Shown: piece after piece, positions 1-21,575 of the stretch
Layout: each line of letters begins with the position of its first letter
Position numbering within the stretch: the stretch's first letter is position 1
DNA from: a virus
Length of the DNA stretch: 24,225 bases
Virus record (IMG/VR): IMGVR_UViG_3300010883_000454
Location: 1 to 24,225 of that record
Direction: 5' to 3' (one strand)
The notes under the pieces: model-generated
Databases searched by the model: none
The model's input: the letters and a program-made list of their open reading frames with translations, nothing else
Told to the model about the DNA's origin: nothing
Translations under genes and position numbers: made by a program

Positions 1-3000
1 CTAGATGTACCTCCTGATACATAAGATTCATAAAGATTTCTAAGTGTTGGGTAGGCTGGCCAATTTGGTTGGAATCCAAATCCACCACCACCAATAGTTT
101 TTCTATTTTTAACATTAATAAAATTTGTTTTTAACTTATCTATATATTGAGCGAAAGTGGTGGCACTTACTGTAAACCCTGCACCACTCAGAGAAGAACC
201 ATAATAAAAATTGGTACCTAAATTTTGTCTATTATACCCTCTCGAGGTATAAACATTTTCTCCAACTACTGGCCATAGATTTTCATTAATATTTTCATTA
301 TATTCAAAGTTAAGAGTTATTGGAAAACCACTTAATTTCATATAGGAGTACACATCATGTTCTATTCCCTTTGCAACATTAATGTGAGCATCTACCATCT
401 TGGTATTTAAGACTAACTTTTCACTATCCCCTACAGGATAATAGGTGTCTCTAATTGTGTTAGTTGTTGCGGTATTACTATCACTAATACTCCAATCCCT
501 AATTCTATTTATTCCGTCTTTTACGGACCAAGATTTTTTATTATCTATTTGTGGTGTTAAAGAGAAACCAGGACAAGAGACGTATATTTCTTGTTCATAA
601 AGGTCATTAAACTCAAAATTAAAATATTGTCGATATTCTTCCGTTCTCATTGTTAAGAAGTTCATCACATTACCAAATAATTGTTGTGATCCAGCACCAC
701 CTTGCCATAAATCAGGGTTCTGTGTGTGTACCCACCTTCCTTGATTTGTGTTGTGTAAGTACACCGTGTTTGGTATTGTCTCATTAGGTGGTGTATTATA
801 TGCTAGTGTTTGTGCCTCTGGTTTTGTACCTGTGATGTTCCACCCTTGTCCAGTACTAACTGATGGGGAAACTCCCCAACTCTGACCTAAAGGGTTCATT
901 ACATCTATAAAAGGATTCTGCATAAAACCCCAATCTTCCCCTATTACGTGATCACTCACTGAAGTTATTGGGTATAGTGAGGGTTGGGAGTAGTCACTTA
1001 TTGTGAGAACTGCGTACCCCGCATCATATAAATCTTTAGCCAATTGTTGCATATTTACCGGAATCTCTTCACCTATATGTTCAAAAACATAGACAGATCC
1101 ACCACCATATGTTACCGCTTCAGTTACGTTAGTCCATGTACAATATATTTGTGGGTTATTAGGATCACAAGCCCCTGGCGTGTTACCCTTACCTATTCCA
1201 CCACCACCTGTACTATTCGTGTATCCTAACCCAATACCAGCACCTAAAGAATTCTTTATAAAATTAAAATTATTTTCAAGACCCGGTTCATTAGAAACTA
1301 ATACTATTGTTAAATCTTCTTCTGGTATAGTCCCCGTTGGTGCTGTTGCTGTTGTAATTGAAGCTCCGGAAATATCTGTAAAACACCTAAACCTATCAAA
1401 ATATTCTTGTCCTCCGTCGTAAGGGCCTAAATGTGGTGAATTCGCTCCAATTGTGTTAGTTTCTCGATACCACCCACCTTTCATTTGGAAGTAGTAATTT
1501 TCATCGTGGTCTAAGACCCTAGGATATCCGTCCCCGTCCATTGGTGTGTCAATCGATATTGCTGTATCACCAATTGTGTTGGTTAGGTAATTAATTGACT
1601 GATTGACCATGTCTGTGTCAAGTTTACCCCTTGTCGTATATACGTATTCATTAAATTCTACAAGCGACTCTGGCGCTCCTATAAATTTTAAGAAGAATTC
1701 TATAATTTTTCGTGTTCCTTTTGACCTAAATAGATAACCAGCGTTTACTATCAATCTTCTCCATAACTCGATATCAAATTCCACCGGAGTCATACCTACT
1801 GAAGTCCCTGAAAAGACAGGATTTGTTGTCCCTCCGAAAAAAGACTCTAGTAAGTTACTTTGGTCGTTGAAATCAATCGTTTCAAAACCTAGTGTTCTTG
1901 CAAAGTTTTTAATTAATTGATCTGGTATGGTATTACTCTTATTATAACTAACACGATTAGCAAAGGCTAAACCATCTATATATCTTTTAACCTCATCAAA
2001 TTCACGACCGTATATTCTTAGTAATTTTTGTACTCTATTGTCAGATGTGTCAAATTCTTTTATAGCCTCTGTTGTGAAGAATCTAGAAACTAAATCTGTT
2101 TTATAGTTATCGTAGGAACTTGAAAGTTCTAGTAGTCCAGTAAGGTATGTCTGATATTTCGTTGTATTAATGTCTATATTATACCCATCTGTAGTTGGCC
2201 AAGTATATTTCCTAGGTGTTTCTATAAATCCTCCCCCATTACCCTCCATAGGTACTGTGAATTCTGATGTAAAAATAGGGGTTACGTTTCTATTTAGTAA
2301 AAAACTATCCAGACTCTTTAATTTAGAGAAAAAGTCTTCAACTATCTCGGTTTTTGGTTTTATATGGTAATTAGCCGACATTATCCCCCCACTAGGTGAA
2401 ATTGTCGTACCAGTAAAAGGATTTCCTTTAACTTTGAAGTAAACGTAGTCTGGTGAAAGATTTGATATCCCTGTATATCCAATTATTGGAAGTTCTTGTA
2501 CATTATTGGCATATCCTGGACTATTACCTATTGTACTCCCAGTTACTGGAAATTTTATAACGTATTTATAATAATCTAATCCCATCATCCTAATCCCACT
2601 ATAACCTTGGTATGGATTTGGTGAATTTTCTAAATTAATACTGAAATTATTCCTTATTGTTGATACTGGGACCTTAAATTTAGAACGATTTGTTAGTGGA
2701 TCGTATGCGTATTCTAAGATTGTGTTTAGAGTTGCCCCACTAACTATCTTATTAACATATAAAGAGGCTGGCCATTTCCTTATTATATTTGTAATACTTG
2801 ATTTTATATGTTCCCTTAAACTACCAAATAAAGTATAATTAAATAGGTCTTTTTGGTCTAAATTTAAGATTAGTTTTAAGTTATTATCAAGAAGTGACTG
2901 TCCTTGGGTAGCGGTAATACCTAGATTACTTAATGAAACCGCTTGAGAAAATCCCTGTGTTTCATAGAAGACGCTACTCTTAGAAGCTAGATTAGCTGAT

Positions 3001-3113
3001 GTATAAAAATTATTAAATATAGTTATACTCCCTTCGGTTATTTGGTACCCTACTAAACTCGGCGTAAAATCCGCGTTAGATTGATAATTACCTATTACTC
3101 TTTTATATGCCAT
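1..3113 (-). CDS. Giant virion protein with gpI/gp7-like baseplate wedge module (3' end outside window)
   Basis: An open frame runs from ATG at 3113 to the left edge with no stop, giving 1037 complete codons; the C-terminus is missing. The N-terminus begins MAYKRVIGNYQSNADF. Residues about 345-480 read like the helical module of P2 tail protein I, T4 gp7 and Afp12: LLRIYGREFDEVKRYIDGL, then an IPDQLIKNFARTLGF segment, then WRRLIVNAGYLFRSKGTRK and IIEFFLKFIG. In that family this part joins wedge subunits around the baseplate hub, and the RGT/KGT helix is its hallmark. The rest (glycine-rich stretch near residue 600, later beta-rich parts) I do not recognise. The ATG overlaps the upstream TAA by one base (TAATG), so translation is probably coupled. 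The fold assignment is by motif recognition only. Alternatively it is a fibre protein with a similar anchor. Confidence 0.7.
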   Translation of the reverse strand, partial: MAYKRVIGNYQSNADFTPSLVGYQITEGSITIFNNFYTSANLASKSSVFYETQGFSQAVSLSNLGITATQGQSLLDNNLKLILNLDQKDLFNYTLFGSLREHIKSSITNIIRKWPASLYVNKIVSGATLNTILEYAYDPLTNRSKFKVPVSTIRNNFSINLENSPNPYQGYSGIRMMGLDYYKYVIKFPVTGSTIGNSPGYANNVQELPIIGYTGISNLSPDYVYFKVKGNPFTGTTISPSGGIMSANYHIKPKTEIVEDFFSKLKSLDSFLLNRNVTPIFTSEFTVPMEGNGGGFIETPRKYTWPTTDGYNIDINTTKYQTYLTGLLELSSSYDNYKTDLVSRFFTTEAIKEFDTSDNRVQKLLRIYGREFDEVKRYIDGLAFANRVSYNKSNTIPDQLIKNFARTLGFETIDFNDQSNLLESFFGGTTNPVFSGTSVGMTPVEFDIELWRRLIVNAGYLFRSKGTRKIIEFFLKFIGAPESLVEFNEYVYTTRGKLDTDMVNQSINYLTNTIGDTAISIDTPMDGDGYPRVLDHDENYYFQMKGGWYRETNTIGANSPHLGPYDGGQEYFDRFRCFTDISGASITTATAPTGTIPEEDLTIVLVSNEPGLENNFNFIKNSLGAGIGLGYTNSTGGGGIGKGNTPGACDPNNPQIYCTWTNVTEAVTYGGGSVYVFEHIGEEIPVNMQQLAKDLYDAGYAVLTISDYSQPSLYPITSVSDHVIGEDWGFMQNPFIDVMNPLGQSWGVSPSVSTGQGWNITGTKPEAQTLAYNTPPNETIPNTVYLHNTNQGRWVHTQNPDLWQGGAGSQQLFGNVMNFLTMRTEEYRQYFNFEFNDLYEQEIYVSCPGFSLTPQIDNKKSWSVKDGINRIRDWSISDSNTATTNTIRDTYYPVGDSEKLVLNTKMVDAHINVAKGIEHDVYSYMKLSGFPITLNFEYNENINENLWPVVGENVYTSRGYNRQNLGTNFYYGSSLSGAGFTVSATTFAQYIDKLKTNFINVKNRKTIGGGGFGFQPNWPAYPTLRNLYESYVSGGTS

Positions 3114-4003
3114 TATAACGAGGTTATATTATTAAAAGTTTTACTAGTATCAACATTTGTACGCTGTTCTCTAACTTCATATAGAGATTCGTTAAATGAA
3201 TCTTTAATTTCAAATAAATTATACTGTTTGTATATCGCATCGTTTGAATCATAAATTGTGTATATCCCGTCTTGGATTGATTTTGTTTGATTACCAAATA
3301 TACCAGTACCTATCGTATCAAAATCATGTTCTGTTAGTTCTATTTCTATTGTTACTGGATTAAAAAAGGTGTTGGAGATAGCTATCATCTGTCCTGTTTG
3401 TCCTAAAAAAGGTTCTGCGTTTGGTTTAACATTAGGTGCTGAACTTGGTGTTAGGGTTAAGAATAAAAGACTCCCTCCATCATTAAAACTATATCTTATC
3501 GCCTTTTGAGTTGTATTTGATAATTGTTGATTAACAGGTTCTGCTAAATTTGATGAGGTAACTATCCTAAAAAGGTTTCTTATTTTAGAGTTACTTGCTT
3601 GGTCGTAATATTCAATTCTGTACCCAACTAATCCCCCATTTACGGCTTCAGAGTTAAGGTTAGAATTATCAAGTACAATTCCTTTTACTTCTGGGAGTGC
3701 TGCTAAATTACCACAATCAATTATTGTTTTAATAATTTCTCTTGGTTTCAAAACTATAGTGTATATACCCCTAGCGTTAAATATCGAGGGGTCTAATGTT
3801 AAATTATACAAACCCTCTAACACCCCCATACCTGCACCACTCATTGCTGGTTTACTATATGAAGTTAAGAATTCATTCGCATTTAACTTTGTAAAAGTAT
3901 TAGTAAAGTTTGAATCTCTACTTGGTGCGTAATGCACATACATATCAATATCATTTGGTGATACGTCTGCCGGTCTTTTTATTCCATAATTACCTGTTGC
4001 CAT
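3113..4003 (-). CDS. Unrecognised 296-residue virion-associated protein
   Basis: The complete frame starts at ATG 4003, 17 bp after the previous gene, behind an A-rich leader (TAAAAATAAAAAATTATTAA) without a Shine-Dalgarno sequence. It begins MATGNYGIKRPADVSPNDID. There is no signal peptide or membrane segment, and only one cysteine, unlike the two genes upstream. The sequence alternates short hydrophobic and polar stretches and looks beta-rich, for example IAISNTFFNPVTIEIELTEH near residues 208-227. The C-terminal part (from about residue 245) is more polar, with aromatic and acidic residues. Its place between Cys-rich fibre-like genes and the gpI-like wedge gene, with a 1-bp overlap into the latter, suggests a small baseplate or connector protein that may partner the giant protein. 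I do not recognise a family; function is inferred from context only. Confidence 0.75.
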   Translation of the reverse strand: MATGNYGIKRPADVSPNDIDMYVHYAPSRDSNFTNTFTKLNANEFLTSYSKPAMSGAGMGVLEGLYNLTLDPSIFNARGIYTIVLKPREIIKTIIDCGNLAALPEVKGIVLDNSNLNSEAVNGGLVGYRIEYYDQASNSKIRNLFRIVTSSNLAEPVNQQLSNTTQKAIRYSFNDGGSLLFLTLTPSSAPNVKPNAEPFLGQTGQMIAISNTFFNPVTIEIELTEHDFDTIGTGIFGNQTKSIQDGIYTIYDSNDAIYKQYNLFEIKDSFNESLYEVREQRTNVDTSKTFNNITSL

Positions 4004-4020
4004 TTAATAATTTTTTATTT

Positions 4021-5610
4021 TTACTCTATTATGTTGAAAAACCCTGATTGGTATCTATCAAAATCCTCCAAAGTTTTAATTTCTGTTAATCTATAATGTT
4101 CTTCAAAAACAGAAGCCACCCCTCTATCTATAAATACATTATTTTCTATTTGTGGTGGGAATACATGACCCATTGTCCACTCTTCTTTAATATCAGGATA
4201 TAAACATCCAGGACAACAATTTTTCATTTCCACCGCAAAGAATGTACCCCCTACATTATAATCCCAATAATGTATGTTATCAATAGTATAAGCGGTCATA
4301 ATCCCCTGGTTTATTTGTGTCCAACCATTTTTCATCCCTAAAGATGGGACTCTTCTAACTAAAGGATACCACTCATTGATACCATACTTTGCCGTCATAT
4401 TAGCATCTGTCATTGCAATATTTCTATTATCTTGTATCGCACCACTTGGGTCAATTCCTATTACAGTCCCTAACCACTTAATTCTATCTATTTTACTTTC
4501 TGTATTACCTGTAATTATAAAATTACCCGAACTTGTCTTACCACAGCACCCTCCCATACACGATTCATCATCACAAGTTGCCGAAGGGTCATAATTAGAT
4601 GATGTGGGGTCCGTACACCCATATTTACAATTATCATATATACAGGAACCATTATCAAAGGTTGCATCCTGATTGTAATTCGATCCCAATATGTCTATAC
4701 AACCTCCAATGTCACAACTCCCATCATCTGTAACATAAATAGGGTTATAGTTATCCGCCCTAGGGTCTGTACAACCTTGGGTTGTGTAACTACAACTACC
4801 ATCGTCAAAAGATGCTAAATCGTCATAGTTATCCGCCATTACATCTATACATCCATAAGTTTGTGAACCATAATTACAACAACAGTTAGTCACACCCATA
4901 TTTACACAAAAATTATAGAGTCCATTACAAGCGATGGTTGCTGATGTGTCCCAATTAATAGCATTAGGGTCAGTACAACCATAACATCCATAATAACAAC
5001 TTCCATCATCAATAGTTTTTAAGAAATCGTAATTACAAGCGTTATTATCTGTACATCCATAAGGATCTACCGGTGTATTAGATACACAAGAACCATCATT
5101 AGCATTAGCTCCTGGAATATAGTTAGGTGAGGTAACTTCTGTACACCCCCACGCATTACACCAACCATTTGCACCTATAGCTCCTGTCATCACAAAAGGA
5201 ATAAAGTCATAACTATTATTTATTGCGAAAGAAAAATCATAAATACATTGTGACCCATCGTTAGCAACTTCAGACGTAGAAGTTACTCTAATAATATAGG
5301 TATTTGGTGTAAGAATTGGTGTTGATAACGGAACTGATAAAAAATTACCTCCTTGGAAATAGAATAGTTCGTAGGAGGTGTCAAGTCCTGTTGTTGTTGA
5401 CGTCATACCGACAGCACTATTACCAACTAATATATTTAACCCTAAACTAAACGGGTTAAAAGACCCAATTACAGGGGTTGGTAGCCCCCAGAAATTAGCA
5501 TTATTGTTATCAACACTTTCGTAAAAATATGAGTTGATTGGTCCATTATATGGGTAAGCAACAAAATCAAAACTTAAACATAATTCATCAATACATCCTG
5601 GTTGTGCCAT
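4021..5610 (-). CDS. Cys-rich virion protein with seven tandem GCTD repeats
   Basis: A complete 529-residue frame from ATG 5610, 5 bp after the 322-residue gene. Three parts are visible. Residues 1-150 are a beta-rich head with few cysteines. Residues 155-351 hold seven repeats of the form GCxDxxAxNYxxxAxxDDGSC; the third is expanded and ends in CCCNY. Residues 357-529 form a distinct C-terminal domain with Cys465, Cys466, Cys469 and an acidic/aromatic tail (ENNVFIDRGVASVFEEHYRL). I count 31 cysteines, about 6% of residues, very high for a phage structural protein. There is no signal peptide, as expected for a virion part released by lysis. The repeats are probably small disulfide- or metal-stabilised beads forming a rod, with the C-terminal domain as tip or anchor. 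This role is inferred; no enzyme motif is visible. Confidence 0.8.
   Translation of the reverse strand: MAQPGCIDELCLSFDFVAYPYNGPINSYFYESVDNNNANFWGLPTPVIGSFNPFSLGLNILVGNSAVGMTSTTTGLDTSYELFYFQGGNFLSVPLSTPILTPNTYIIRVTSTSEVANDGSQCIYDFSFAINNSYDFIPFVMTGAIGANGWCNAWGCTEVTSPNYIPGANANDGSCVSNTPVDPYGCTDNNACNYDFLKTIDDGSCYYGCYGCTDPNAINWDTSATIACNGLYNFCVNMGVTNCCCNYGSQTYGCIDVMADNYDDLASFDDGSCSYTTQGCTDPRADNYNPIYVTDDGSCDIGGCIDILGSNYNQDATFDNGSCIYDNCKYGCTDPTSSNYDPSATCDDESCMGGCCGKTSSGNFIITGNTESKIDRIKWLGTVIGIDPSGAIQDNRNIAMTDANMTAKYGINEWYPLVRRVPSLGMKNGWTQINQGIMTAYTIDNIHYWDYNVGGTFFAVEMKNCCPGCLYPDIKEEWTMGHVFPPQIENNVFIDRGVASVFEEHYRLTEIKTLEDFDRYQSGFFNIIE
4558..5148 (-). repeat. Seven tandem GCTD...DDGSC protein repeats
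   Basis: Within the 529-residue protein the units start at residues 155, 185, 211, 253, 279, 303 and 331. Units 1, 2, 4, 5, 6 and 7 are each 21 residues with fixed first Gly-Cys, central Asn-Tyr and final Ser-Cys. Unit 3 begins the same way (GCTDPNAINW) but swaps the DDGSC end for a longer segment with four further cysteines plus a CCC cluster. Linkers vary from 3 to about 12 residues. The DNA copies have diverged, so this is an old protein-level repeat rather than a recent DNA duplication. Confidence 0.9.
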
Positions 5611-5615
5611 TATAC

Positions 5616-6584
5616 TTATCTTTTATTTTTTTCACAGAAAATTAAACATTCTTTGAAGGTCTTGTAGTCTCCGGTACCGTCATAGATTTCTGTTGTTAAA
5701 TTATTAATACAAGACCATGTTAATTCCATTTGGTTTTTAACACATCCTCTTCCATTCCATAAATATCCTAGATGTGCATGTTCTAAACAACAAGCTTCCC
5801 CATATTTAGAGGCATTTTTCTGACCTAATTGTATAAAAGATAGTGTCCCATCCATCATTTTTCTTGTTCCTTTACACTCAACACCTAATATTTTCTTACT
5901 TATAATGTCATAATTTTCACAAGCAACATATCCAGTGGTGTTGTCCATACCATAGGTGAAATAACCATCACATTTTATTACATTAGCATATTGTAAAGCA
6001 GCTCCCTTTGTGTACCAAACAGGTATATTATCAACATAACCAATTATTTGGTGATTCCCCACATCATTGTTATCACTACTTGGTATCGCACATATTCGAT
6101 CTATACGATCCCATTTATACCCTTCACTCACTTTTTCCTCACAGAATTTCACTTGTTTTTCCATCGTTGTGGACCTATACCATTGTACCACACCACCCGT
6201 TGTTATATTCTCAATATAGTCCTCTCCTGTTGGTTCAATTTTATCTTCTCCAATAGCCTCTTCATGAGAAGAACACGCCATATAAAGTTTCTTACCTTTT
6301 ATAATGTGTTCATGAAAACCCACACACCCTATCTGTAACCCATATTCTTTTGCTTGTGAAGGTATGTTAAAGATTGGGTTACCATCTAGTTTCGACACTG
6401 CGTAAATTGAGTAGTCTATCGGTTTATTTTGGTCTCTTTTACCATATAACATAAAATCTAGTACATTTTTTATACGACTATCTTGTTCTGAAGTTATACA
6501 ACATCTATCACAAGCAATCCCTACACTTTTGTCATAATTTAACGCTGTTTCATCTAAACATCCTATTTTTTTATTTCCCCTCAT
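5616..6584 (-). CDS. 322-residue Cys-rich protein with 118-residue internal duplication
   Basis: A complete frame from ATG 6584, 13 bp after the 1376-residue gene, with an A/T-rich leader and no Shine-Dalgarno. Residues 8-29 are a degenerate GCTD unit (GCLDETALNY...CDRCC). Residues 69-165 and 187-281 are two copies of one unit. The first half of each copy runs from an IP/P start to Y-x-A-C (Cys87/Cys104 and Cys205/Cys222); the second half is a C...GYxW...C module (Cys148, Tyr156, Trp158 against Cys266, Tyr274, Trp276). Residues 288-317 are a third Cys motif (WSCINN...DGTGDYKTF.EC...C). I count 17 cysteines. The first copy also has His91, His93 and His107 near its cysteines, a plausible metal site; the second copy has Phe, Tyr and Tyr there. 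It is probably a structural or adhesive virion component; no family name is assigned. Confidence 0.78.
   Translation of the reverse strand: MRGNKKIGCLDETALNYDKSVGIACDRCCITSEQDSRIKNVLDFMLYGKRDQNKPIDYSIYAVSKLDGNPIFNIPSQAKEYGLQIGCVGFHEHIIKGKKLYMACSSHEEAIGEDKIEPTGEDYIENITTGGVVQWYRSTTMEKQVKFCEEKVSEGYKWDRIDRICAIPSSDNNDVGNHQIIGYVDNIPVWYTKGAALQYANVIKCDGYFTYGMDNTTGYVACENYDIISKKILGVECKGTRKMMDGTLSFIQLGQKNASKYGEACCLEHAHLGYLWNGRGCVKNQMELTWSCINNLTTEIYDGTGDYKTFKECLIFCEKNKR
5742..6380 (-). repeat. Internal duplication, period 118 residues
   Basis: Residues 69-165 and 187-281 of the 322-residue protein align without gaps at an offset of 118 from residue 70 to at least residue 158. Matched positions include Pro70/188, Ala78/196, Tyr81/199, Ile85/203, Cys87/205, Gly89/207, Tyr101/219, Ala103/221, Cys104/222, Cys148/266, Gly155/273, Tyr156/274 and Trp158/276. 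The final cysteine is displaced by two residues (165 against 281). Identity is low, so the duplication is old. Confidence 0.75.
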
Positions 6585-6597
6585 AATTTATCTATTT

Positions 6598-9500
6598 TTA
6601 ACTTACACATGGTGTATAAGTTACACAATCACCAATTAGATCCTGACACATACCTCCTGCAGAATTCATTAAAGCGTTATAAGAACCTACATTATATAAG
6701 GTATAATCTTCACAAACCGGTCCCCATGTTCCACTACCAGCGTTATAATTACAACACCATACTTCAAATATTGTACCAGCTATACAAGTATTATTATCAA
6801 AACATGGATCTCCGTTACTAATTGCAGTTGCACAATCTATATTACCTGGGTCGTTAAAATTAGCAGCACTTATATCAGTACACCCTACTGGTATATCATT
6901 AGCGTCATCAAACTCACAACAACTATTATCCCCTAAAGTTCCAGGTATTATCGCACTTGGGTATAGTAGTTGTCCTGCTGTTATACCTAAAAGTGTGTTA
7001 CTACTTTGAGCCGTAACTCCCCATTGGGCAGAAGGAGGGTTAGCAGAACAATCTGTACAAGAATAAACATTTCCATTTGGTCCTACTAGTGGTATACAAT
7101 TATTTGGATTACCTGCGTCTAGATAGTTACTTGCTGTAGGGTCAGGACACCCTGGGTCATAATTACACATTAACTCACCCGCATCCAATTCTATATTAGG
7201 TGCCCAATTAGTTGAGTTCATGTCCGCACATCCCCAATCTACATCTTCATTTTCACAACAATGACCCCCATTCAATAATGGTACCCAATTAGAATTACAT
7301 TGGAGAGGGTCTGTACACATATTTTGGTCTCCAAAACAAAGACCTGAGTATTGTGAATTAGTTAGTGTTGATGTTGGGTCAATACATGTTCCGTATATAG
7401 CACATTCACAAAGATAACTGTTACCTGGAACGTTATCTAGGTCAAAACAAGGTTCTGTCGCTGATGGGTTAAAGTTAGTAGAATCTTCATTCATACACCC
7501 AATTATATCTAAACAATCACTTTGTGCTACACAATCTGCAGCTGTGGAGTACATAGTGACTCCTGGTATCATCACTGGTGAACCCACACAACCTCTTACC
7601 CCTAAAGTACCATCAGGTTGTATAATTGGGACTCCATTAAGTTCTATGTAGTAGTTGAGGTTACAGTACCACCCCACTATAAACTGTGATGTTTCACATT
7701 GGGCACTTGTGTCTTTTGGTCCTGATGGGATTATTCTGTGGTCAGTACCAAATACTGGTCTCACATAAGGTGCTGACGTCGTTTGTATGTCGTTTCCTTG
7801 AATTCCTTGTGCTCCGTAAGCACTACCAAACGTAACTTGTGTAATAGCCCCAGGAATTGTTGGGTCCATAAAATCATAAGTTCCTGATATGGTTGGTACC
7901 GCAGTACTAATTTCTGTAGTAAAGGTATTACTAACCTCATTAAGAAAATGAGTTGGTTTACACCCTAGAAAATTTGGTTTTTGGTAATATTTTAACGATA
8001 AATCTTTTATTACTAAGTTAAAAGTTAATGGACTATTAACTATTTGTTCTTTAATATCACATATTACTCTTAGACTTAAATTTTTTGCACCTCTAACGGT
8101 AATTTCACTTTCTAATTCTATTGTTTGTAACCCGTCCGCGGAATCAAAAGAATTACTAGACCATACTTTTCTTGGGGTAATTACCGTATTATCATCCGTT
8201 GTATAGTTATATGGCATTTCGTCGATAGCAAAATAGTCTAAACCATAACCATAAAAATCACCTGAAGGTGGACAAGCAGGTCCTTGTGGGTTGTTTACCG
8301 ATAATTGTATTAAATAACTAGATGTTGCTGGTGTTGTAAAGATAGCTTCAACGTCGTAAATTCCAGAACCACCATAGGTCATAATAGGTATTACTGTTGT
8401 ACTAGTTATGTAATCACTAATCTGAACTTCAAGGTCAAACATACTTATAACGTTATCAACTGATGGAGTATAATGTGGAGAAGAGGTTCCACCTAAATTA
8501 AGTCCAACGTATCCGAATCTTACTCTATATGTTTTATTCTGTTCTAACATTCTTACTAGATTCATCGCCAATCCTGGCGCATCGTCTGTTATTATCGTAT
8601 ATATACCATCTACCACTGCATCTATGACTGTTGACCCCCCACAACTCGTTGATCCTGGTTGTAAATCGTCGTCTTCTCCCATCGAAAAGTCCTCGAAATA
8701 CACATATCCCCAATTAGGGTCAATTTGTCCCGTAGCTCCTAGTTGTATAGTACTTAAGGTCTGACTATTGTAATCTTCCATCAATAAATTAGCTCTAAAG
8801 ACATAAGTCGCACCCTCTATAACATCGGTTACTAAAGGAGTGTATAATAAAACTCTTTCTCCACTATCTTGTATTATTTCTCCTATCCCCCCTGAATTTA
8901 TAAAGACCTGGTCTGTTAATTGATACCCACCATCATAATATAACCTTCCGTTATCTCCTCTACCCACAAATAGGGTACTGTAGGGAAAATTAAACAACTC
9001 TTTCCCTTGTCCCTGTAAATCATTACCATAGTCTAAATAACATTTACCATTCCACCACACAAAACCATACTCACTATAGTCTTCACAACATGGTCTTTTA
9101 ATTATTATTTCTTTAGTAGTTAATGGGTCATAAAACATCACCGCACCACCGTCTTGTATATAATAAGGTACTGGACATTTATAATCTTTGGTTAAATTTT
9201 CAACAGTACCACCACATTCTTCCGCAATACCGGGGTGTATTATATCTCGATAAATCCCCATATCTTTTATGTCTTGGTAGAGTGGTATATTAATATTCAA
9301 AGTACCCCCACCATAAGCCAATAAACTTAGACATTTAACCCAACCACAATTGTCTTCTGGTGAACATGTGTTACACTCCCCTGTTAAAAGAGGGTTACAA
9401 TACCATAAACTACCACTAGTGTCCTCCACTACATCACCTACTCCATATGTGTTAGTAACTCCATCCCATGGTCCTAAATCTGCACCATTACAATACAAAT

Positions 9501-10728
9501 ACCCATCATTCATTAAAGTATTACCTTGTACATTAGTTGTTATCGTACCATAAAGATTATAACCAAGGTAGTAAAAAGGAATAACCCCTAGAGGTGGATT
9601 GGTTAATTCATAAGAAACCTGGTTTCCTAAGTCATCGTAGGTTTGCGAACCATACACCCCTAAAGGTAAGTCGTCTACGTCTATTGGATCAGAATTTAGA
9701 AGGTATCCTTTTATATTGTGTTTATATAATTCTATATTGTAAGCACTTGGTAGTATGTTAAATCCTTTGAATAGTCCAAATACTTTTCTTTTTATCGAGT
9801 TAAAACTGTTTTGACCACTGGTTGTATTTTCTAACGAAATTGAGAAATCGTCTATCTGTATAAAATCCCCTATCATATTAATCACCCCTGTCGGACCTGT
9901 TGGTATATTGACTACTATTGTAAACCAATATTTACCCCCTGAAGGTGCTGTAAATGTAGTTGTTATTGTTTCTCTATCGGGATAGTATGGGATTTCTTCT
10001 GAGGACCAATCGAACACTACTAGGTTCTGACTAATCATATCAATTCCCATTATCTGAACTTGAAAAGGATTAGTGAATGTGAGGTCGTCGATAAAGTCTT
10101 TATGTGACCGAACTCTACTCATTATATTTACCGATAATCTATAGTTTACACCCGCAGATAAATCTATCCCTTGGTTTAGTGAGAATGGATCCATAACACT
10201 TGCGGATAATAAAGGATTAACCGATGGGGTTTGTAATATTAACTGACCATAATTTGGTATACCACCACCAATGATATCAGTAATTTCTAATCTAATATTG
10301 TTGTTACCTGGAATAACAATGTATGGACTATATTGGTTCCACACTAATTTTGTGTCATATTCTTCACTCCCTCCATACCATTTAGAAGTTCCCATTTCAA
10401 AGTCATCGAAAAAGGCATCTGCAATAAACTCGTTGAATATCTCTATAATTTTTTCATCAATGTCTTGTTCCCAATCATCGTATTGGTCAGTAACTAAATT
10501 ACCCCCAAACCAGGTAGGTGGTATAACAAACCAATCTTTAATTCCGTCATTGTTGACATCGATATAAAGGGACTCAATGCAGTCGTCCATAGACTGATTA
10601 GTATCTATACAAGGATATGGGTATATACCATTGGAGTATAGTGGTTCTGGATTTAGTATCGACCTTCTCATATTAGTCCTATCCCCTAATAAACTTCCTC
10701 TTGATATTTTTCTTTTTATATATTCCAT
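6598..10728 (-). CDS. 1376-residue multidomain fibre/adhesin-like protein (jelly-rolls, CBM5/12-like module, Cys-rich tail)
   Basis: A complete frame from ATG 10728, 3 bp after the 77-residue gene. Parts in order: residues 57-65 DVNNDGIKD, a calcium-loop pattern; 106-300 a jelly-roll-like beta sandwich beginning FFDDFEMG and ending IQIDDFSISL; 420-466 an aromatic module W..Y..GDVV..LWYC..W..C like chitin-binding CBM5/12; 526-563 a DGG...CC...GFVWWNGKC module; 676-838 a second jelly-roll beginning YFEDFSMG; 1011-1376 a tail with about 33 cysteines holding six GCTD-type units, several longer and less regular than the standard 21-residue form. There is no signal peptide and no visible catalytic motif. 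The mix of carbohydrate-binding-like beta sandwiches and Cys-rich beads fits a tail fibre or baseplate adhesin that touches host glycans. Domain names are by pattern recognition; binding specificity is unknown. Confidence 0.8.
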   Translation of the reverse strand: MEYIKRKISRGSLLGDRTNMRRSILNPEPLYSNGIYPYPCIDTNQSMDDCIESLYIDVNNDGIKDWFVIPPTWFGGNLVTDQYDDWEQDIDEKIIEIFNEFIADAFFDDFEMGTSKWYGGSEEYDTKLVWNQYSPYIVIPGNNNIRLEITDIIGGGIPNYGQLILQTPSVNPLLSASVMDPFSLNQGIDLSAGVNYRLSVNIMSRVRSHKDFIDDLTFTNPFQVQIMGIDMISQNLVVFDWSSEEIPYYPDRETITTTFTAPSGGKYWFTIVVNIPTGPTGVINMIGDFIQIDDFSISLENTTSGQNSFNSIKRKVFGLFKGFNILPSAYNIELYKHNIKGYLLNSDPIDVDDLPLGVYGSQTYDDLGNQVSYELTNPPLGVIPFYYLGYNLYGTITTNVQGNTLMNDGYLYCNGADLGPWDGVTNTYGVGDVVEDTSGSLWYCNPLLTGECNTCSPEDNCGWVKCLSLLAYGGGTLNINIPLYQDIKDMGIYRDIIHPGIAEECGGTVENLTKDYKCPVPYYIQDGGAVMFYDPLTTKEIIIKRPCCEDYSEYGFVWWNGKCYLDYGNDLQGQGKELFNFPYSTLFVGRGDNGRLYYDGGYQLTDQVFINSGGIGEIIQDSGERVLLYTPLVTDVIEGATYVFRANLLMEDYNSQTLSTIQLGATGQIDPNWGYVYFEDFSMGEDDDLQPGSTSCGGSTVIDAVVDGIYTIITDDAPGLAMNLVRMLEQNKTYRVRFGYVGLNLGGTSSPHYTPSVDNVISMFDLEVQISDYITSTTVIPIMTYGGSGIYDVEAIFTTPATSSYLIQLSVNNPQGPACPPSGDFYGYGLDYFAIDEMPYNYTTDDNTVITPRKVWSSNSFDSADGLQTIELESEITVRGAKNLSLRVICDIKEQIVNSPLTFNLVIKDLSLKYYQKPNFLGCKPTHFLNEVSNTFTTEISTAVPTISGTYDFMDPTIPGAITQVTFGSAYGAQGIQGNDIQTTSAPYVRPVFGTDHRIIPSGPKDTSAQCETSQFIVGWYCNLNYYIELNGVPIIQPDGTLGVRGCVGSPVMIPGVTMYSTAADCVAQSDCLDIIGCMNEDSTNFNPSATEPCFDLDNVPGNSYLCECAIYGTCIDPTSTLTNSQYSGLCFGDQNMCTDPLQCNSNWVPLLNGGHCCENEDVDWGCADMNSTNWAPNIELDAGELMCNYDPGCPDPTASNYLDAGNPNNCIPLVGPNGNVYSCTDCSANPPSAQWGVTAQSSNTLLGITAGQLLYPSAIIPGTLGDNSCCEFDDANDIPVGCTDISAANFNDPGNIDCATAISNGDPCFDNNTCIAGTIFEVWCCNYNAGSGTWGPVCEDYTLYNVGSYNALMNSAGGMCQDLIGDCVTYTPCVS
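6745..7500 (-). repeat. Degenerate GCTD-type repeats in the 1376-residue protein tail
   Basis: Residues about 1077-1328 contain six related units, starting near GCMNEDSTNF (1077), TCIDPTSTLT (1114), MCTDPLQCNS (1137), GCADMNSTNW (1166), GCPDPTASNY (1193) and GCTDISAANF (1282). They keep the Cys-x-Asp start and mostly the Asn-Tyr/Phe/Trp position. The ends vary: some finish on a single cysteine, others on CxC or CCNY after a longer Cys-containing loop. They are less regular than the seven in the 529-residue protein. Confidence 0.75.
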
Positions 10729-10731
10729 TTA

Positions 10732-10965
10732 TTATCTTTCAAAAAAAGGAGTTATTGTACCTCCACTATATGTTTTTTTTAGTTCTTCGATGGAATAATT
10801 TGGTTTTAATCTTCTCATTCGTTTAATCGAATTTTTAACCCCTTTTGGGATAAATTTTGCAAATCCTTCCATGTCTTGTGGTTGTGGTTCCACTTGAATT
10901 ACGGTGGGTCCTTGAACCCTAGGTAAAGGAGGTAATATGTATGTTCTTGTTTTTCCTGATTCCAT
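10732..10965 (-). CDS. Unrecognised small basic protein, 77 residues
   Basis: I start this gene at ATG 10965, giving MESGKTRTYILPPLPRVQGP and 77 residues. A longer reading from TTG at 10989 is possible, but it overlaps the preceding gene by 22 bp and uses a rare start. ATG 10965 lies 2 bp after the upstream TAA (TAAAAATG), matching the spacing used elsewhere here. The N-terminal half is proline-rich (PPLPRVQGP, EPQPQD). The C-terminal half is basic and likely helical (FIPKGVKNSIKRMRRLKPNY, then SIEELKKTYSGG). There are no cysteines and no membrane segment. Position between two structural genes suggests a small connector, chaperone or assembly factor for the fibre-like proteins. No family is recognised. 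Confidence 0.65.
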   Translation of the reverse strand: MESGKTRTYILPPLPRVQGPTVIQVEPQPQDMEGFAKFIPKGVKNSIKRMRRLKPNYSIEELKKTYSGGTITPFFER

Positions 10966-10967
10966 TT

Positions 10968-11855
10968 TTAATAGTATATACCTGGCCAATTTGGTAGGTT
11001 ATTTAATCTTTTCTCCCATAGGTCCATGTCACACCCATGGTTATAAGTATTTTCAACTAGGTAATTAGCGAGTCTAGGGAGTGGGTCCCCATTACCTTGA
11101 TCTATTTGGTATTGGTCCCACCAATCCAAGAGTGCTAAATCAACAAAACTTGTCTCAAATCTATAAGTTCGTGTAGCTGGGTCTAATAACACAGTAACGT
11201 AATCAAATTTTTCATTCCAATAATCGATATAGAAATTACCTTGATTACTATTCACAGGAAAAGACCTACCTAGTATCTGAACTTCTCCTTTTGCTGAGTT
11301 AAAAAACTCTACTTTCATATATAACCTACTATCTGTCACATTTAATTTTTCTTCAGATTTCCAATAATATAAAAATGACCCCTGTTTTGACTTACAAATA
11401 TTAATAAAAGAAGTATCACTACTTTCTAATTGTATATTAGCGTAAGATATTAATTTCTGAGTTTCTCGATGTGGTGTTGTAAAATAAGATAATCTAACAT
11501 AACTACCCACAAATCTTGCTGATTTATAAGTCACGTCTTGTTGGTTAAATGAACCGGATTCGGTCCAAATTGTTGTCATAGACCCAGCGTCTTCGTTCCA
11601 CATGTGCATATTAAGAGTGTAACACTCATCCATTTGGTTTGTATTACCTCCCGTATTTGAACCCTCATCACACCTTAAGGTATACTTTGTCTTTTCCCAA
11701 TCATCAATAGGATTAATTGAGAGTTGAGTGATTTTTTCTACCTTTTCCTTAACATATTCAGTGTTGTCAGTTGGAAAAAAATCTTGTTCGATCTGTATGT
11801 TAACCTTACGTTGTTTCCCTGTGTTTAATATTTTATATTTTTGTATATCACTCAT
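10968..11855 (-). CDS. Unrecognised 295-residue virion-associated protein
   Basis: A complete frame from ATG 11855, 7 bp after the 1697-residue gene. The N-terminus contains RKVNIQIEQDFFPTDN (residues 16-31), which resembles SLNIDLEQDFDF near the N-terminus of the 1513-residue protein, so both may attach through a shared N-terminal element. The body is beta-rich and aromatic (for example WNEDAGSMTTIWTESGSF, FLYYWKSEEKL, VEFFNSAKGEVQILGRSF), with few cysteines (Cys63, Cys78 and two others). The tail includes WDQYQIDQGNGDPLPRLANY and ends in NWPGIYY. There is no signal peptide. Size and context suggest a baseplate or fibre-attachment protein, in the role T4 gives to gp8, gp9 or gp11, but no sequence match to those is claimed. 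Confidence 0.75.
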   Translation of the reverse strand: MSDIQKYKILNTGKQRKVNIQIEQDFFPTDNTEYVKEKVEKITQLSINPIDDWEKTKYTLRCDEGSNTGGNTNQMDECYTLNMHMWNEDAGSMTTIWTESGSFNQQDVTYKSARFVGSYVRLSYFTTPHRETQKLISYANIQLESSDTSFINICKSKQGSFLYYWKSEEKLNVTDSRLYMKVEFFNSAKGEVQILGRSFPVNSNQGNFYIDYWNEKFDYVTVLLDPATRTYRFETSFVDLALLDWWDQYQIDQGNGDPLPRLANYLVENTYNHGCDMDLWEKRLNNLPNWPGIYY

Positions 11856-11862
11856 AGTATGT

Positions 11863-14800
11863 TTACATATTTAGTTGGTTAACATTTCTAGCTGCCCAAT
11901 AGGTTGGTAAAGATGTGGCCATAACCCCAAAACCATATATCTCAGTACCATAACCATCAACCGCAACATTATTATCTCTTAGAGTACCACCCACTGTGCG
12001 TAAAAAGATAAAAGCTTTATCTCCTTTATGCATTGGGATTTGTGCTGACTTAAAACTTTGTGACCATCTTTTCTGAAAATCTGCTTTAGTCGAACTAGAC
12101 CCAGTCTCACCACAACTTGGTAAATAAGTAGAGGTTGTGTGATTAATTACGTCATAATTAGGACTGTCTTGATCGGTGATGTTACAACCTGGATACCCAC
12201 CAGCCGTATCTCTACATGGACTGTAAGCCATTTTATTAACCGCTGGTAATCCATTAACATCAAAACCACCACAACCGATATCCCATTTTTTATTAACAAA
12301 TGAGTTCCACCCTTCCGATTGGTAGTGTGGTAGTGGGTTAGTTGACCCCCCTGCTGTCCCATCGTCAGGGTCATAGATATAGGTACACTTTTCAGATCCT
12401 TTACCTGGTCCATCAATAGCACTACAAGATTCAGAAACAATACCTATCCAAAAACCTGAATATAGTCTAGTGTATTGCATATACGCATCTGGTAAAGACA
12501 TATCATAAGCAAATGTCTTAGCAGCACTTAACCCAAGGGTTGGTCCAAATTGTCCTGTTGGTGCACCATCATTCATATATGGATTATTATATACTATTCC
12601 CGGACCACCTGTATTAGGACCAGCAACTGACCATCCTCGATCAGGATAAGAGCTATTATGAAATTCTTCGTACCCATCATAATTAATCCCCATTTCAATA
12701 TTAAGTCTACCTCTAAACTCATAAGTATAACTCATGTTTGGTGGTATATCTGGCGCAAAAAATGAAGGTTGTGTGTATGGTAACATCTGATCACCAAGTG
12801 TTTGCGACGTAGTATTAGTACCCCCAGGATATGAATAGTATCTATTTCCACCATCTAAATTCATACACCCACAACCACAAGATGTGGCGTCTGTATCATA
12901 ACATTTTCCAAAAGAACCATATGCCCTATTTTGAGCCCAATCTTCTGATGGACTTTCACCACTATTACCCGTACCGTTACCAGGAAAACCATTAACAGTA
13001 GCTGGCCAATCCGAATAAAGACTTTTATGGTTGATATCCCAGCTGTTGTACCACGTTTGTGTACATTGACCGTAAAAGAATCTCCAATTGTTTGGGTCGC
13101 CTGGTGTTCTATGTCCAACAAGATTAACTTGTCCAGGTACCATAGCTACGTCCGTATCATTTAATATCCCAGCACGTCCATCAGTAGTACCAAACCCAAT
13201 CGTCTGCTTGCCAAGTCCTCCAAAAGGTTGTACTTGTTGAAAAACTGGAACCCCAGATGGGTTATTGTTATTTCCTTCTGAGTCAACCATTGTTGGCCAC
13301 CCGTGTCTTGGTGCTAAAAAATCATTACTTCCAGTACCTCCATTACCAGCCGGTCCTCCTTTATCGTAACAAGTGTTACAGTGACTAGTATCAAAGGTGT
13401 AAAACTCAAAAAGATTATGGTCAAAATAACCTGGATTACCAGTCGATCCATTAGTGTCTGTTATCTGACTAGGCCAAGTATCAGTACCATTATCATTTAT
13501 AACTGTCCACTGGTAGTTGGGGCCTAATATCTCAACTCCATATGGTGAAACGTCAAGATCGAATAATGCTTGTACTTTTCCTTTTGCGTCTCCGAAGTTT
13601 GACACTCCACTATTATTCCAATCTAGTGGACCATAATAATCAGTAAAATTTGGTGTTAGTAGGAAGTTATCATATCTAAAAATATCATAAGCGAGAAATC
13701 CAGATTCTTTTGACGCATTAAATACTGGATTGGTAACCCCGCAGACTACTCCAGCAAAACGAGCCCTCGCAGGTTGTTGGACTGTACCGTACGTATCACC
13801 TAAATCATAAGCTAGGAAGTCTGTCGCAAAATAAGTAGCATCCTTCCAATATGGATAAATACCTCTAGCGGCGTTCCACCCTAGGTTCTGATCCCCTCTT
13901 TGTTCATCAGGAACTGGAGGATTATTACCCACGTTAACTATTGGTGGGTATTGTGTTGCAAATACAGTTCCAAAATTTCCTGAAGTATTACCATTATTAC
14001 CAGAGTATGAACAACAACACCCTAATGGGTTAAAATTACCACCACCTGATACTGTTTGCATAATACCATCAACATCCTCAACACATGGACCCCCTTGTAA
14101 TACGTTAGCACCACAAGCATAAGTGGCAAAAGGATTATAGTTAGACGCTATTGCGTCCATACAACCGTATATTACAGTAGTGAAAGAGGAGCTACTTGCA
14201 CTAGATTTAGAAGGTGTTATACCTACAGCAACTGTTTTATCTACATTAAGGTAATGTTTTCCATTTAGAAACGGGTAATCCACACCTAGAGTTTGGTCCA
14301 CGTCTTCAAAATAACCAACATCTAATAAGTCTCTCCAAACCATCAAACCGTCTACATCTTGAGCCCAATAAGGAATATCTAAAACTGAAGGATCAGCAGT
14401 TTCTATATAGCTCGACCATTTCCTTAATTTATAATCAGCAAGAGGGTCATACACCCACCCTCCATATTTTGGTGTTCCAAAATACCTTATCATACTAATA
14501 TCCTTAAATTCACCAGTGTATGGTGCGGAAAAAGGGTTACCTGTGTTAGCTTGATAACTTCCCTCAAAATTAACTATCCCTAACAATATTCTATAATTCC
14601 CAGAAATAGATGGGTTAAACGTAACTGAGTAGTTTACCGAATGATTAATTCCGTCTATACTCGCAGCCGCTCCCACAAATAACGCAGAACCACCATTCCC
14701 TAAAATTTCTTCATTTCCGGCTGGTCCTAATATTCTAACCACCCCTGTGGTTGTAATCTGTGTATATGTAAATTCTAGCAATAACCCCGCATCTGGTAAA

Positions 14801-16956
14801 TTACATAACCCTGGTGGAATAAAAATAGTAGTGTAAATATAATTACCGGTTGCAGGGTTAGATGAACCAAGAGTCGCACTACTTGAGTTTAGTATCGCTC
14901 CTGAAGCACCTCCGTCTGTTAATACTAAAGAACCCGCATTATAACTAGCGTACACGGCCCATTGACTTATTTGAAATCCGTTATCGTCTGAAAGTAAAAC
15001 CTCGTCACAACTACCTGTTTCACACTCTCTTCCTATTGTGTTAAATCTATTCTTTAGTCTTTCTATTCTGGTTTCGGTAAGTTGGGAGTTGTTATATTCC
15101 ATAAAGTCCATGTAGAACCAGTCACCTAAATAATCACCATACTCACTCATGAACCCACCACTTATGTTTTTTACGTGTCCACTAAATCTATCATTGATAC
15201 TCCTTTTTGAGACAATATCTAATCCTTCTCCTGTTTTTACTAATATAGAATCATAATTAAACATCCAAGCGAAAAAACACTCAACGTCTGTAAAATCATA
15301 TGTTTTTTGACCAGCCTTCTTGGTTAACATTAAGAATAACTCGGAAAGTGGTTTTCCATAGTTATCTGTTAATCTTTTAATGTCAATATCTTCATCTACT
15401 ATAACATTATAATTAGGGTCATTATATATACTAGTACTAAAGGGTAATTTATTAATCTCAAAGTTATTAATACTTGTTATGATTTTTCCTTTTCTTAAGT
15501 AGTACTCTGAAGGGGTTGAGCCCACTCTTGAAACCTCAACATAATAACTTGTAACACCACCTACCAACTGTGCTAAAGTTTGGTCAAAAAATGGTATATT
15601 GTCCTGAATTTCTCTTGCTCGTATTGTAAAAGAGAAAGGACTCACTATACTAGCCACGGTATATATCCCACTTAAATTAAATAAAGACGGTCTTCTCTCT
15701 TCATAAAATTCTGTACCTAAAGCATTTTCAGATACAGTTATTAATACCTTATCATCAACTCTTAAACCAGTTTCTAACACCCCTAAGGTGATTAAAATTT
15801 CGTTCGGTTGGGACGGTATTAAAGTAAAATGAGAGTTGTTTATGGGTTCAACACTTATTGATACTATGAGTTCTGGTGAATAGTTTGAGACTCTTTTTAT
15901 AAACCCTTGTGAATTCTCTACACTCCATGGGTAGTTTTTTCCAGCGGTGTTTGTTCCTGAACCGGCCGTTACCCAATCCCAATGTTTTTTAGTCTTATGT
16001 TCAATAATGATATAGTGTCTCGAGTACTTATCCCCCACAGAATCCAATGAAGCTCCGATTACTCTCTTAAACCCATATAAAGTAGGGTCACAAGTTTCAT
16101 ACTTACCGTTTAGTGTTACATATCCAATTGTTACCAATGGTTTAACAAAAATGTAATCACCTTCCACAAAGTTATGTTCAAATGGTGTGTATAATGCGGT
16201 GTACCATCCTTGTTCTGTTTTTATTGGGACACTAAAAAGAAATGGGACTCCGTCTTGTGTATAACCCTTATATTCTTGGTTACTTATTTTTAGACTTGCG
16301 AAGGTTAGGACATCTCCATCAAATAAAGGTTCTTCTAGTACGTGGTCAGCACCATTAAACCAGTCTGTTATCGTTAACCCATCCAGATCCATATCTAAAT
16401 ACGATACAATATCGTTATACATTAAATCATTTATCCCAGTGTTTATTCCGTATCTCGCGTCGTTAGTGTCTGGAACAAACATTAAATCAGCGGTAAATTC
16501 TGGTATCTTATATAGTTTTAGGTATTCATTTTCATAAGCGTATAGTATATGACCCACCCAATTACTAGTACTACCTATATCAAAATTATACTCTGTTGGG
16601 TTTCCCCCAGCGAATAATGGTGTTAGGATATTAGGTAATGAATAAGTTAGGTTTTCATAAACATTTGTTTGTGATGTTGACTCTACAACTGTTAGTTCAC
16701 CATTTGGTGATAAATTGGACCCTATCCAATAATACTGTTGTGGTAAATAAAATAACGGTGTTAGTGTAGCTGTTAATCGATATGTTGTTGATTCTTGTCT
16801 TTCTGTAAAAAATTGTTCAGCTTGACTAACTATCTTAATCACCTCCCCTGTGGGTAAAGGTTTATTTGTGTTAATCAAAGTAACACTCTCATTGTACCCC
16901 ACTGCCTTAGCGCCTGCTTTTTTATCCTGTGTCCTTAATATCTTTTTTCTATCCAT
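11863..16956 (-). CDS. 1697-residue virion structural protein with jelly-roll and GCMD module
   Basis: A complete frame from ATG 16956, 2 bp after the stop of the 1513-residue gene; start MDRKKILRTQDKKAGAKAVG. Residues 1-640 are beta-rich without a family I recognise. About 520-650 is a mixed segment rich in Phe, Trp and Asp (ECFFAWMFNYDSILVKTGEG). Residues 660-828 look like a jelly-roll sandwich, ending VTFNPSISGNYRILLGIV and FKDISMIRYFG, similar in pattern to the two in the 1376-residue protein. Residues 931-984 are one long GCTD-type unit, starting GCMDAIASNYNPF and ending GCCCSY. The C-terminal 700 residues are Gly/Asn/Trp-rich with scattered Cys pairs (CGCGCMN at 1361-1366) and end in a hydrophobic beta segment (KAFIFLRTVGG). 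It probably forms a large baseplate or fibre part; exact role unknown. Confidence 0.8.
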   Translation of the reverse strand: MDRKKILRTQDKKAGAKAVGYNESVTLINTNKPLPTGEVIKIVSQAEQFFTERQESTTYRLTATLTPLFYLPQQYYWIGSNLSPNGELTVVESTSQTNVYENLTYSLPNILTPLFAGGNPTEYNFDIGSTSNWVGHILYAYENEYLKLYKIPEFTADLMFVPDTNDARYGINTGINDLMYNDIVSYLDMDLDGLTITDWFNGADHVLEEPLFDGDVLTFASLKISNQEYKGYTQDGVPFLFSVPIKTEQGWYTALYTPFEHNFVEGDYIFVKPLVTIGYVTLNGKYETCDPTLYGFKRVIGASLDSVGDKYSRHYIIIEHKTKKHWDWVTAGSGTNTAGKNYPWSVENSQGFIKRVSNYSPELIVSISVEPINNSHFTLIPSQPNEILITLGVLETGLRVDDKVLITVSENALGTEFYEERRPSLFNLSGIYTVASIVSPFSFTIRAREIQDNIPFFDQTLAQLVGGVTSYYVEVSRVGSTPSEYYLRKGKIITSINNFEINKLPFSTSIYNDPNYNVIVDEDIDIKRLTDNYGKPLSELFLMLTKKAGQKTYDFTDVECFFAWMFNYDSILVKTGEGLDIVSKRSINDRFSGHVKNISGGFMSEYGDYLGDWFYMDFMEYNNSQLTETRIERLKNRFNTIGRECETGSCDEVLLSDDNGFQISQWAVYASYNAGSLVLTDGGASGAILNSSSATLGSSNPATGNYIYTTIFIPPGLCNLPDAGLLLEFTYTQITTTGVVRILGPAGNEEILGNGGSALFVGAAASIDGINHSVNYSVTFNPSISGNYRILLGIVNFEGSYQANTGNPFSAPYTGEFKDISMIRYFGTPKYGGWVYDPLADYKLRKWSSYIETADPSVLDIPYWAQDVDGLMVWRDLLDVGYFEDVDQTLGVDYPFLNGKHYLNVDKTVAVGITPSKSSASSSSFTTVIYGCMDAIASNYNPFATYACGANVLQGGPCVEDVDGIMQTVSGGGNFNPLGCCCSYSGNNGNTSGNFGTVFATQYPPIVNVGNNPPVPDEQRGDQNLGWNAARGIYPYWKDATYFATDFLAYDLGDTYGTVQQPARARFAGVVCGVTNPVFNASKESGFLAYDIFRYDNFLLTPNFTDYYGPLDWNNSGVSNFGDAKGKVQALFDLDVSPYGVEILGPNYQWTVINDNGTDTWPSQITDTNGSTGNPGYFDHNLFEFYTFDTSHCNTCYDKGGPAGNGGTGSNDFLAPRHGWPTMVDSEGNNNNPSGVPVFQQVQPFGGLGKQTIGFGTTDGRAGILNDTDVAMVPGQVNLVGHRTPGDPNNWRFFYGQCTQTWYNSWDINHKSLYSDWPATVNGFPGNGTGNSGESPSEDWAQNRAYGSFGKCYDTDATSCGCGCMNLDGGNRYYSYPGGTNTTSQTLGDQMLPYTQPSFFAPDIPPNMSYTYEFRGRLNIEMGINYDGYEEFHNSSYPDRGWSVAGPNTGGPGIVYNNPYMNDGAPTGQFGPTLGLSAAKTFAYDMSLPDAYMQYTRLYSGFWIGIVSESCSAIDGPGKGSEKCTYIYDPDDGTAGGSTNPLPHYQSEGWNSFVNKKWDIGCGGFDVNGLPAVNKMAYSPCRDTAGGYPGCNITDQDSPNYDVINHTTSTYLPSCGETGSSSTKADFQKRWSQSFKSAQIPMHKGDKAFIFLRTVGGTLRDNNVAVDGYGTEIYGFGVMATSLPTYWAARNVNQLNM

Positions 16957-21568: not shown

Positions 21569-21575
21569 TTACTTT
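21556..21575 (-). terminator. Perfect hairpin over the gp6 stop codon; weak terminator or regulatory hairpin
   Basis: AAAGTAAAC-TC-GTTTACTTT on the minus strand is a perfect inverted repeat with 9-bp arms (effectively an 8-bp stem and CTCG loop). It contains the gp6 TAA and is flanked by the direct repeat TTCGCAAA at 21549-21556 and 21573-21580. The stem is AT-rich and no clean U-run follows, so termination would be weak; it may instead tune expression between gp6 and the giant structural genes, or protect the message end. Confidence 0.4.

Follow-up and report, generated by a model that had tools for sequence, protein, structure and literature searches.

A putative gp7/gpI-like baseplate wedge gene lying apart from gp6 in a lineage of phages

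Gene order at the baseplate locus

The record IMGVR_UViG_3300010883_000454, a complete virus contig of 24,225 bases (the window), was examined for the arrangement of its baseplate genes. Its main genes are all on the minus strand (Table 1), and in the order of transcription they comprise the end of a ribonucleotide reductase gene, genes for the baseplate proteins gp25 and gp6, eight open reading frames (ORFs) of 1513, 1697, 295, 85, 1376, 322, 529 and 296 amino acids (aa), and an open ORF of 1037 aa, whose product is probably a wedge subunit resembling gp7 of T4 and gpI of P2. The gp6 and gp7-like proteins are encoded by separate ORFs, 18 kb apart: 18,455 bases and eight ORFs (the 85-aa TTG-start ORF included) lie between the end of gp6 and the start of the gp7-like gene. 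Because the record is the whole contig, the sequence of the gp7-like protein further to the left cannot be read within it. A full-length homologue of 1415 aa, 86% identical to the window protein, is encoded on a 231-kb contig (G001) with the same gene order as the window.

Relatives were taken as the best 80 of at least 365 loci found with a four-row alignment of the helical domain of the gp7-like protein, to which the Mel-JY01 protein added 25, and 110 ORFs carrying the domain were counted. The named relatives are Microcystis phage Mel-JY01, Flavobacterium phage immuto and the metagenomic phage LR756508. Scanning genome contigs with the domain profile yielded no relative.

Table 1. Features of the window, in order of transcription, with the parts of the gp7-like protein last
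Feature	Position	Strand	Remarks
gp25 (sheath initiator / wedge)	23377-23757	-	PF04965 E 9e-14
gp6 (Baseplate_J)	21569-23374	-	PF04865 23.2 bits (cut-off 21.1); phrog_219 E 7.7e-18
1513-aa gene	16959-21500	-	N-terminal ~394 aa related to cl5 proteins
1697-aa gene (cl4)	11863-16956	-	Conserved in pieces over residues 1-928; 770-aa extension at the C terminus
295-aa gene (cl3)	10968-11855	-	Same interval in other phages
85-aa ORF	10732-10989	-	TTG start; overlaps next ORF; sole match in L023
1376-aa gene	6598-10728	-	Counterparts in window clade (L023, G001); fast evolving
322-aa gene	5616-6584	-	Matched only within window clade (L023, G001)
529-aa gene (cl0)	4021-5610	-	Last ~90 aa (4021-4290) conserved, preceded by an extension with Cys-rich repeats
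296-aa gene (cl1)	3113-4003	-	Directly before the gp7-like gene in 65/71 loci entries; split-barrel-like region 88-213 in model
Putative gp7/gpI-like baseplate wedge protein, 1037 aa	3-3113	-	Open ORF, 3' truncated at record end
Helical gp7/gpI-like (KGT) domain, residues 315-500	1614-2171	-	Profile comparisons
SKGTRKIIEFFLKF motif, residues 464-477	1683-1724	-	Aligned to P2 gpI HKGT region
Only PF09684 match in the record	1596-1763	-	E 0.0085, 10.2 bits (cut-off 20.6)
273-aa stretch, residues 574-846	576-1394	-	Absent from compact relative L024; common to L023 and G001

Similarity of the giant protein to gpI and gp7

An earlier note, made from the window alone, had assigned to positions 1670-2085 (residues 344-481 of the gp7-like protein) a helical block with the SKGTRKIIEFFLKF signature of gpI, gp7 and Afp12 proteins; the signature, the ORF, the gap and the gene count were all found as it described them. 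Residues D335, G369, D373, G409, R453, K465 and G466 are invariant in the domain of 62 relatives. BLAST of the window protein directly against T4 gp7 gave no significant match, nor did a 5-row alignment when compared by hhalign with the single sequences of T4 gp7 and P2 gpI, indicating that alignment depth is needed. Pfam and PHROG scans of the whole window protein found no match, and nothing relevant was returned from the Protein Data Bank (PDB) by a sequence search with the 1415-aa homologue or by searches with profiles of the gp7-like domain and the 296-aa family.

A 62-row domain profile scored 31.5 against 20 rows of P2-type gpI (none of 150 column shuffles as high, maximum 17.4) and 26.2 against 19 rows of T4-type gp7 (E 0.005; none of 150 shuffles as high, maximum 21.0). 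Twelve other alignments from the same phages scored 11.7-23.4 in the profile comparison, gp6 being the highest, and the gpI and gp7 profiles compared with each other scored 18.9, with 3 of 100 shuffles as high. When eight more distant members of PF09684 and TIGR02242 were added, the gpI score rose to 38.0 (E 4.1e-5; none of 100 shuffles as high, maximum 17.1), and such a rise with alignment depth is the behaviour expected of homology. The domain family aligns in register with both gpI and gp7 at KGT. In scans of the 62 non-redundant domain sequences at E<=1, the top recurring families were PF09684 (Tail_P2_I; 14 sequences, best E 0.0052, Pfam) and TIGR02242 (7 sequences, best E 0.0079, NCBIfam); the Pfam family PF23786 (Baseplate_wedge) was matched by two, and the remaining families by one member each, or two for CUX1_N. 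PF23786 was also considered as an alternative wedge family and rejected, having matched none of 17 records. The best match of the gp7-like domain to a deep gp6 alignment, at gp6 residues 9-98 (the N-terminal domain), was weak (1 of 100 shuffles as high), and it fits the homology between the helix-turn-helix domain I of the gp7 orthologue and domain I of the gp6 orthologue described for XM1 in an excerpt of PMC10457771.

Several observations weigh against assigning the protein to this family. The hhalign probabilities are modest (40% and 70% for gpI, 7.5% for T4 gp7), the gpI match spans only about 38 columns, and the window's own domain segment matched no baseplate family, PF09684 included, in the member scans. 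In searches of 15 whole lineage records, PF09684 scored 10.2 bits inside the gp7-like gene of the window, 15.2 in G011 and 12.7 in LR756508 and had no match in the 12 others, G001 among them; every match was below the curated cut-off, and the protein is therefore termed gp7/gpI-like rather than a member of PF09684. A PAxx motif towards the C terminus (from residue 1083 of the G001 protein), which is conserved across both subgroups (E 2.5e-4), was tried as the second half of gpI and rejected, having no significant gpI match. An AlphaFold model of residues 1-560 has a mean predicted local distance difference test score (pLDDT) of 64 and is poor in the KGT domain (mostly 42-69), and no gp7, gpI or Afp12 chain was among the matches listed for it by Foldseek/VIA-align; its best matches were functionally unrelated split-barrel proteins (Z up to 6.1 over residues 118-253).

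On balance, the profile comparisons suggest, with a probability of roughly three in four (0.77), that the giant protein is a gp7/gpI-like wedge subunit of a contractile-tail phage. Of the likenesses in the earlier note, that to gpI was borne out and that to T4 gp7 is tentative, but likeness to Afp12 was not established, CIS12_fam being matched by one of the 62 domain sequences (E 0.1, NCBIfam). A CIS12_fam search within one bacterial family gave weak matches only, which were not used.

Distance between gp6 and the gp7-like gene

The two genes are adjacent in none of 60 non-redundant loci, which were selected for having gp6 and have it upstream in every case; the gap ranges from 1,442 to 18,537 bases (median 3,480). 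Nine of the 60 gaps, those of the window clade and of six contigs with gp6 outside the fetched locus, were taken from contig coordinates or set by hand, and the gap of 10,006 bases in L065 assumes a circular contig. Gaps of more than 18 kb were found only in the window, G001 (18,537 bases) and L023 (18,214 bases). Thus, non-adjacency of gp6 and the gp7-like gene is lineage-wide and the window clade is its extreme, whereas the gp6 and gp7 genes of T4 overlap by 4 bases and gpJ and gpI of P2 by 8 bases. In the relative L024 (57% domain identity), listed together with L234 (the G013 contig), gp6 is missing from the 91-kb record and five small genes separate cl1 from the gp7-like gene.

Of the eight intervening genes, five belong to families found in the same interval elsewhere: the 1513-aa (N-terminal part, cl5), 1697-aa (cl4), 295-aa (cl3), 529-aa (C-terminal part, cl0) and 296-aa (cl1) genes. 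The 85-, 1376- and 322-aa ORFs have clear counterparts in L023 and G001 only; the 1376-aa ORF had been clustered into cl0, but profile comparison gave no link to cl0. In L072 and other compact relatives, cl0 and cl1 alone lie between gp6 and the gp7-like gene (gap 1.6 kb), and the order cl0-cl1-gp7-like is contiguous in 33 of the 38 non-redundant loci that have cl1. Growth in size is seen in the window: pieces of the 1697-aa protein as far as residue 928 match a relative of 613 aa, and about 770 aa follow beyond them, while the 529-aa protein has about 440 aa added ahead of its cl0 end. The gp7-like protein has grown as well, by a 273-aa stretch that is not in the full-length protein of L024 (825 aa) and for which Pfam, PHROG and PDB sequence searches gave no noteworthy match.

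Two rates of divergence within the block

The identity of window proteins to those of G001 and L023, respectively, was 90.5% and 71.4% for gp25, 92.5% and 70.0% for gp6, 90.2% and 75.6% for the 296-aa protein, and 95.2% and 78.5% for the KGT domain. Corresponding values were 68.7% and 49.6% for the 1513-aa protein, 74.1% and 51.6% for the 1697-aa protein, 79.7% and 44.3% for the 295-aa protein, 81.8% and 46.5% for the 1376-aa protein, and 78.3% and 47.0% for the 322-aa protein, so that seven of the eight block ORFs (all but the 85-aa ORF) were covered when the 529-aa protein is included. In the latter, the last 89 aa were 89.9% and 83.1% identical and the first 440 aa 82.0% and 51.6%. Mean pairwise identities over up to 22 genomes were 58.5% for gp6, 59.0% for cl1, 52.1% for the KGT domain and 49.7% for gp25, as against 25.8% for cl5, 34.2% for cl4, 32.9% for cl3 and 38.7% for the whole of cl0. 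This two-rate pattern, which reveals constraint and not function, indicates that the 296-aa protein behaves like a part of the wedge core and the rest of the block mostly like accessories; as conserved as gp6, the cl1 gene probably encodes a wedge-core part.

The block had been interpreted in the earlier note as an insertion of baseplate accessories, with the gp7-like gene as the boundary of the wedge cassette. The first idea holds in part. Fast divergence marks five of the eight genes and the greater part of the 529-aa gene, but the block is not one uniform insertion: the 296-aa gene and the last ~90 aa of the 529-aa protein equal gp6 in conservation. In other phages, homologues of five of the window's genes occupy the same interval. 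The boundary was not upheld: genes of the 1513-aa (cl5) family lie downstream of the gp7-like gene in 11 loci, several of which are near copies, and in G001 the gp7-like gene is followed by further large ORFs of 775, 817 and 532 aa before RuvC-like and primase genes.

A possible slot for variable baseplate genes, and alternatives

According to excerpts of PMC10457771, PMC8894135 and PMC9024508, two copies of gp6 are bound in the core bundle by gp7-type proteins, which also hold fibres or spikes on the outer side, and in AlgoCIS the gp7-like part is exposed, holds fibres and is called a hotspot of re-engineering (excerpt of PMC8894135). By analogy with T4 and XM1, the helical KGT domain would link a pair of gp6 copies at the core of the wedge, and the N-terminal region and lineage-specific stretches of the gp7-like protein would point outward and carry peripheral parts. 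In clade B, to which the window belongs, a conserved unit (the cl0 end, the 296-aa cl1 gene and the gp7-like gene) is placed downstream of gp25-gp6, and the slot between gp6 and this unit holds anything from nothing (L072) to about 17 kb of genes that mostly evolve fast and are often large. The slot of the window is extreme because its older genes have lengthened and it contains three ORFs specific to its clade. The slot proteins, together with the outer parts of the gp7-like protein, could make up an enlarged periphery of the baseplate, and assembly would not require the genes for the two partners to be adjacent. We tentatively propose, at somewhat less than even odds, that a large lineage has a wedge operon with an evolved cargo slot, in which gp25-gp6 and the cl0 end-cl1-gp7-like unit leave gp6 and the gp7-like gene 1.4-18.5 kb apart, with a varying set of fast-changing and often giant baseplate proteins encoded between them.

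Trees of gp6 and of the gp7-like domain agree in placing the window, G001 and L023 in one clade, and both contain a 16-row clade with mostly short gaps; if gaps are divided into long and short at 4.5 kb, the domain tree requires five changes. With weak deep forks and some long branches, the trees leave gain or loss of cl5-cl4-cl3 undecided. It is possible, if rather doubtful, that clade B had the long block first, the compact members having lost genes and the window line having gained no insertion: L079 and L087, which have the cl5-cl4-cl3-cl0-cl1 set, stand near the base of the 38-row clade in the gp6 tree, and homologues of five window genes occur in the block of other phages. However, key forks are weakly supported, the outgroups Mel-JY01, immuto and LR756508 have just one or two genes between gp6 and the gp7-like gene, and only the window clade has the long extensions and the 1376- and 322-aa genes, which argues that at least part of the block was gained; the ORFs and extensions specific to this clade are most simply gains.

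The giant protein would have to be regarded differently if its KGT domain were derived from gpI in a peripheral adaptor or fibre-holding paralogue, with the true gp7 undetected elsewhere. Most of the protein is indeed lineage-specific with no family match, and gp7 is generally hard to find (no clear orthologue was found by HHpred in P1, according to an excerpt of PMC9024508). Nevertheless, such a paralogue is unlikely, given that the gp7-like gene is present in the cassette with gp6 and gp25, that the domain profile detects a single copy in each of 21 records, that no other PF09684 match was found in the 15 lineage records, and that the KGT domain is among the most conserved parts; the second clear gp7 match in the genome that would have refuted the earlier note was not found in these searches. 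An assembly artefact is highly improbable as the source of the 18-kb separation, even for a fragment of uncultured origin such as the window, because G001 and the L023 contig are separate records with the same order and gaps of nearly the same length.

Comparison with known systems

Like T4 gp7 (1032 aa), the gp7-like protein (1415 aa in G001) is large, has a helical stretch in which SKGT aligns to TKG of gp7, and shares its cassette with gp6; it differs in that 18.5 kb replaces the 4-base overlap and the likeness is detectable by profiles only. With P2 gpI, PF09684 and TIGR02242 it shares, in register, the helical core R..I...Y...KGT...I and a position downstream of gp25/gp6-type genes, but gpI has 176 aa and overlaps gpJ, whereas here the domain is one part of a protein of 1415 aa and does not reach the Pfam cut-off. 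In the extracellular contractile injection systems (eCIS; CIS12, Afp12, Alg12), whose gp7-like part is exposed and fibre-holding according to the same excerpt of PMC8894135, the sequence link is that of a single member. Mel-JY01, immuto and LR756508 are also close parallels, in which gp25, gp6 and one or two genes precede a protein of 1265-1400 aa with the same domain, hypothetical wherever annotated; the gap there is just 1.4-2.4 kb, and the intervening genes come from families cl2 and cl6. A literature search on separated gp6 and gp7 genes, limited to titles, found none on the subject, and no claim is made that such an arrangement is unpublished.

If the proposed slot is real, phages could do without translating gp6 and gp7 together from overlapping genes in the manner of T4 and P2, and cl1 would represent a core subunit of the wedge that has gone unrecognised and has no known counterpart. 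The slot shows where to seek accessory, possibly host-contacting, baseplate proteins in this lineage, and the 296-aa family is a clear target for structure work. As a wedge-core protein, gp7 is easily missed by sequence searches; the 62-row profile links to both gpI and gp7, which fail to link to each other, and it can therefore help to name gp7 in many unannotated phages.

Other features of the locus and its relatives

The model of the 296-aa protein (pLDDT 82) had matches within background to Upf1 (9qdq, Z 7.1), the JBD30 baseplate (8rk3_O, Z 6.7 over 75 residues, root mean square deviation 2.9) and phicrAss001 (7qoh, Z 5.5), with no gp7, gpI or Afp12 chain among the matches listed. A split beta-barrel appearance is common to both models, at residues 116-254 of the gp7-like protein (2352-2768) and residues 88-213 of the 296-aa protein (3365-3742). 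The 296-aa protein was considered as a duplicate of the N-terminal region of the gp7-like protein and rejected, there being no profile link.

Cys-rich repeats of the type GCTDPxAxNYxPxxxxDDGSC are present in the 529-, 1376- and 1697-aa proteins (4021-5610, 6598-10728 and 11863-14172), and the extension of the 1697-aa protein starts at one of them. The N-terminal part of the 1513-aa protein includes a weak carboxypeptidase-regulatory-like stretch (PF13620, E 0.014). The end of the ribonucleotide reductase gene (phrog_367, E 1.6e-10) occupies 23967-24224, directly before the baseplate cassette.

The baseplate region of G001 is flanked by replication genes on both sides, with helicase, UvsX-like, SSB and exonuclease genes further upstream of the cassette. 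G001 has two neighbouring sheath-like genes (PF04984) of 938 and 1160 aa (L010:4654-7470 and 7492-10974) at a distance of about 30 kb upstream of its gp25 gene, and LR756508 also has two sheath-like genes (PF04984; 204104-208087).
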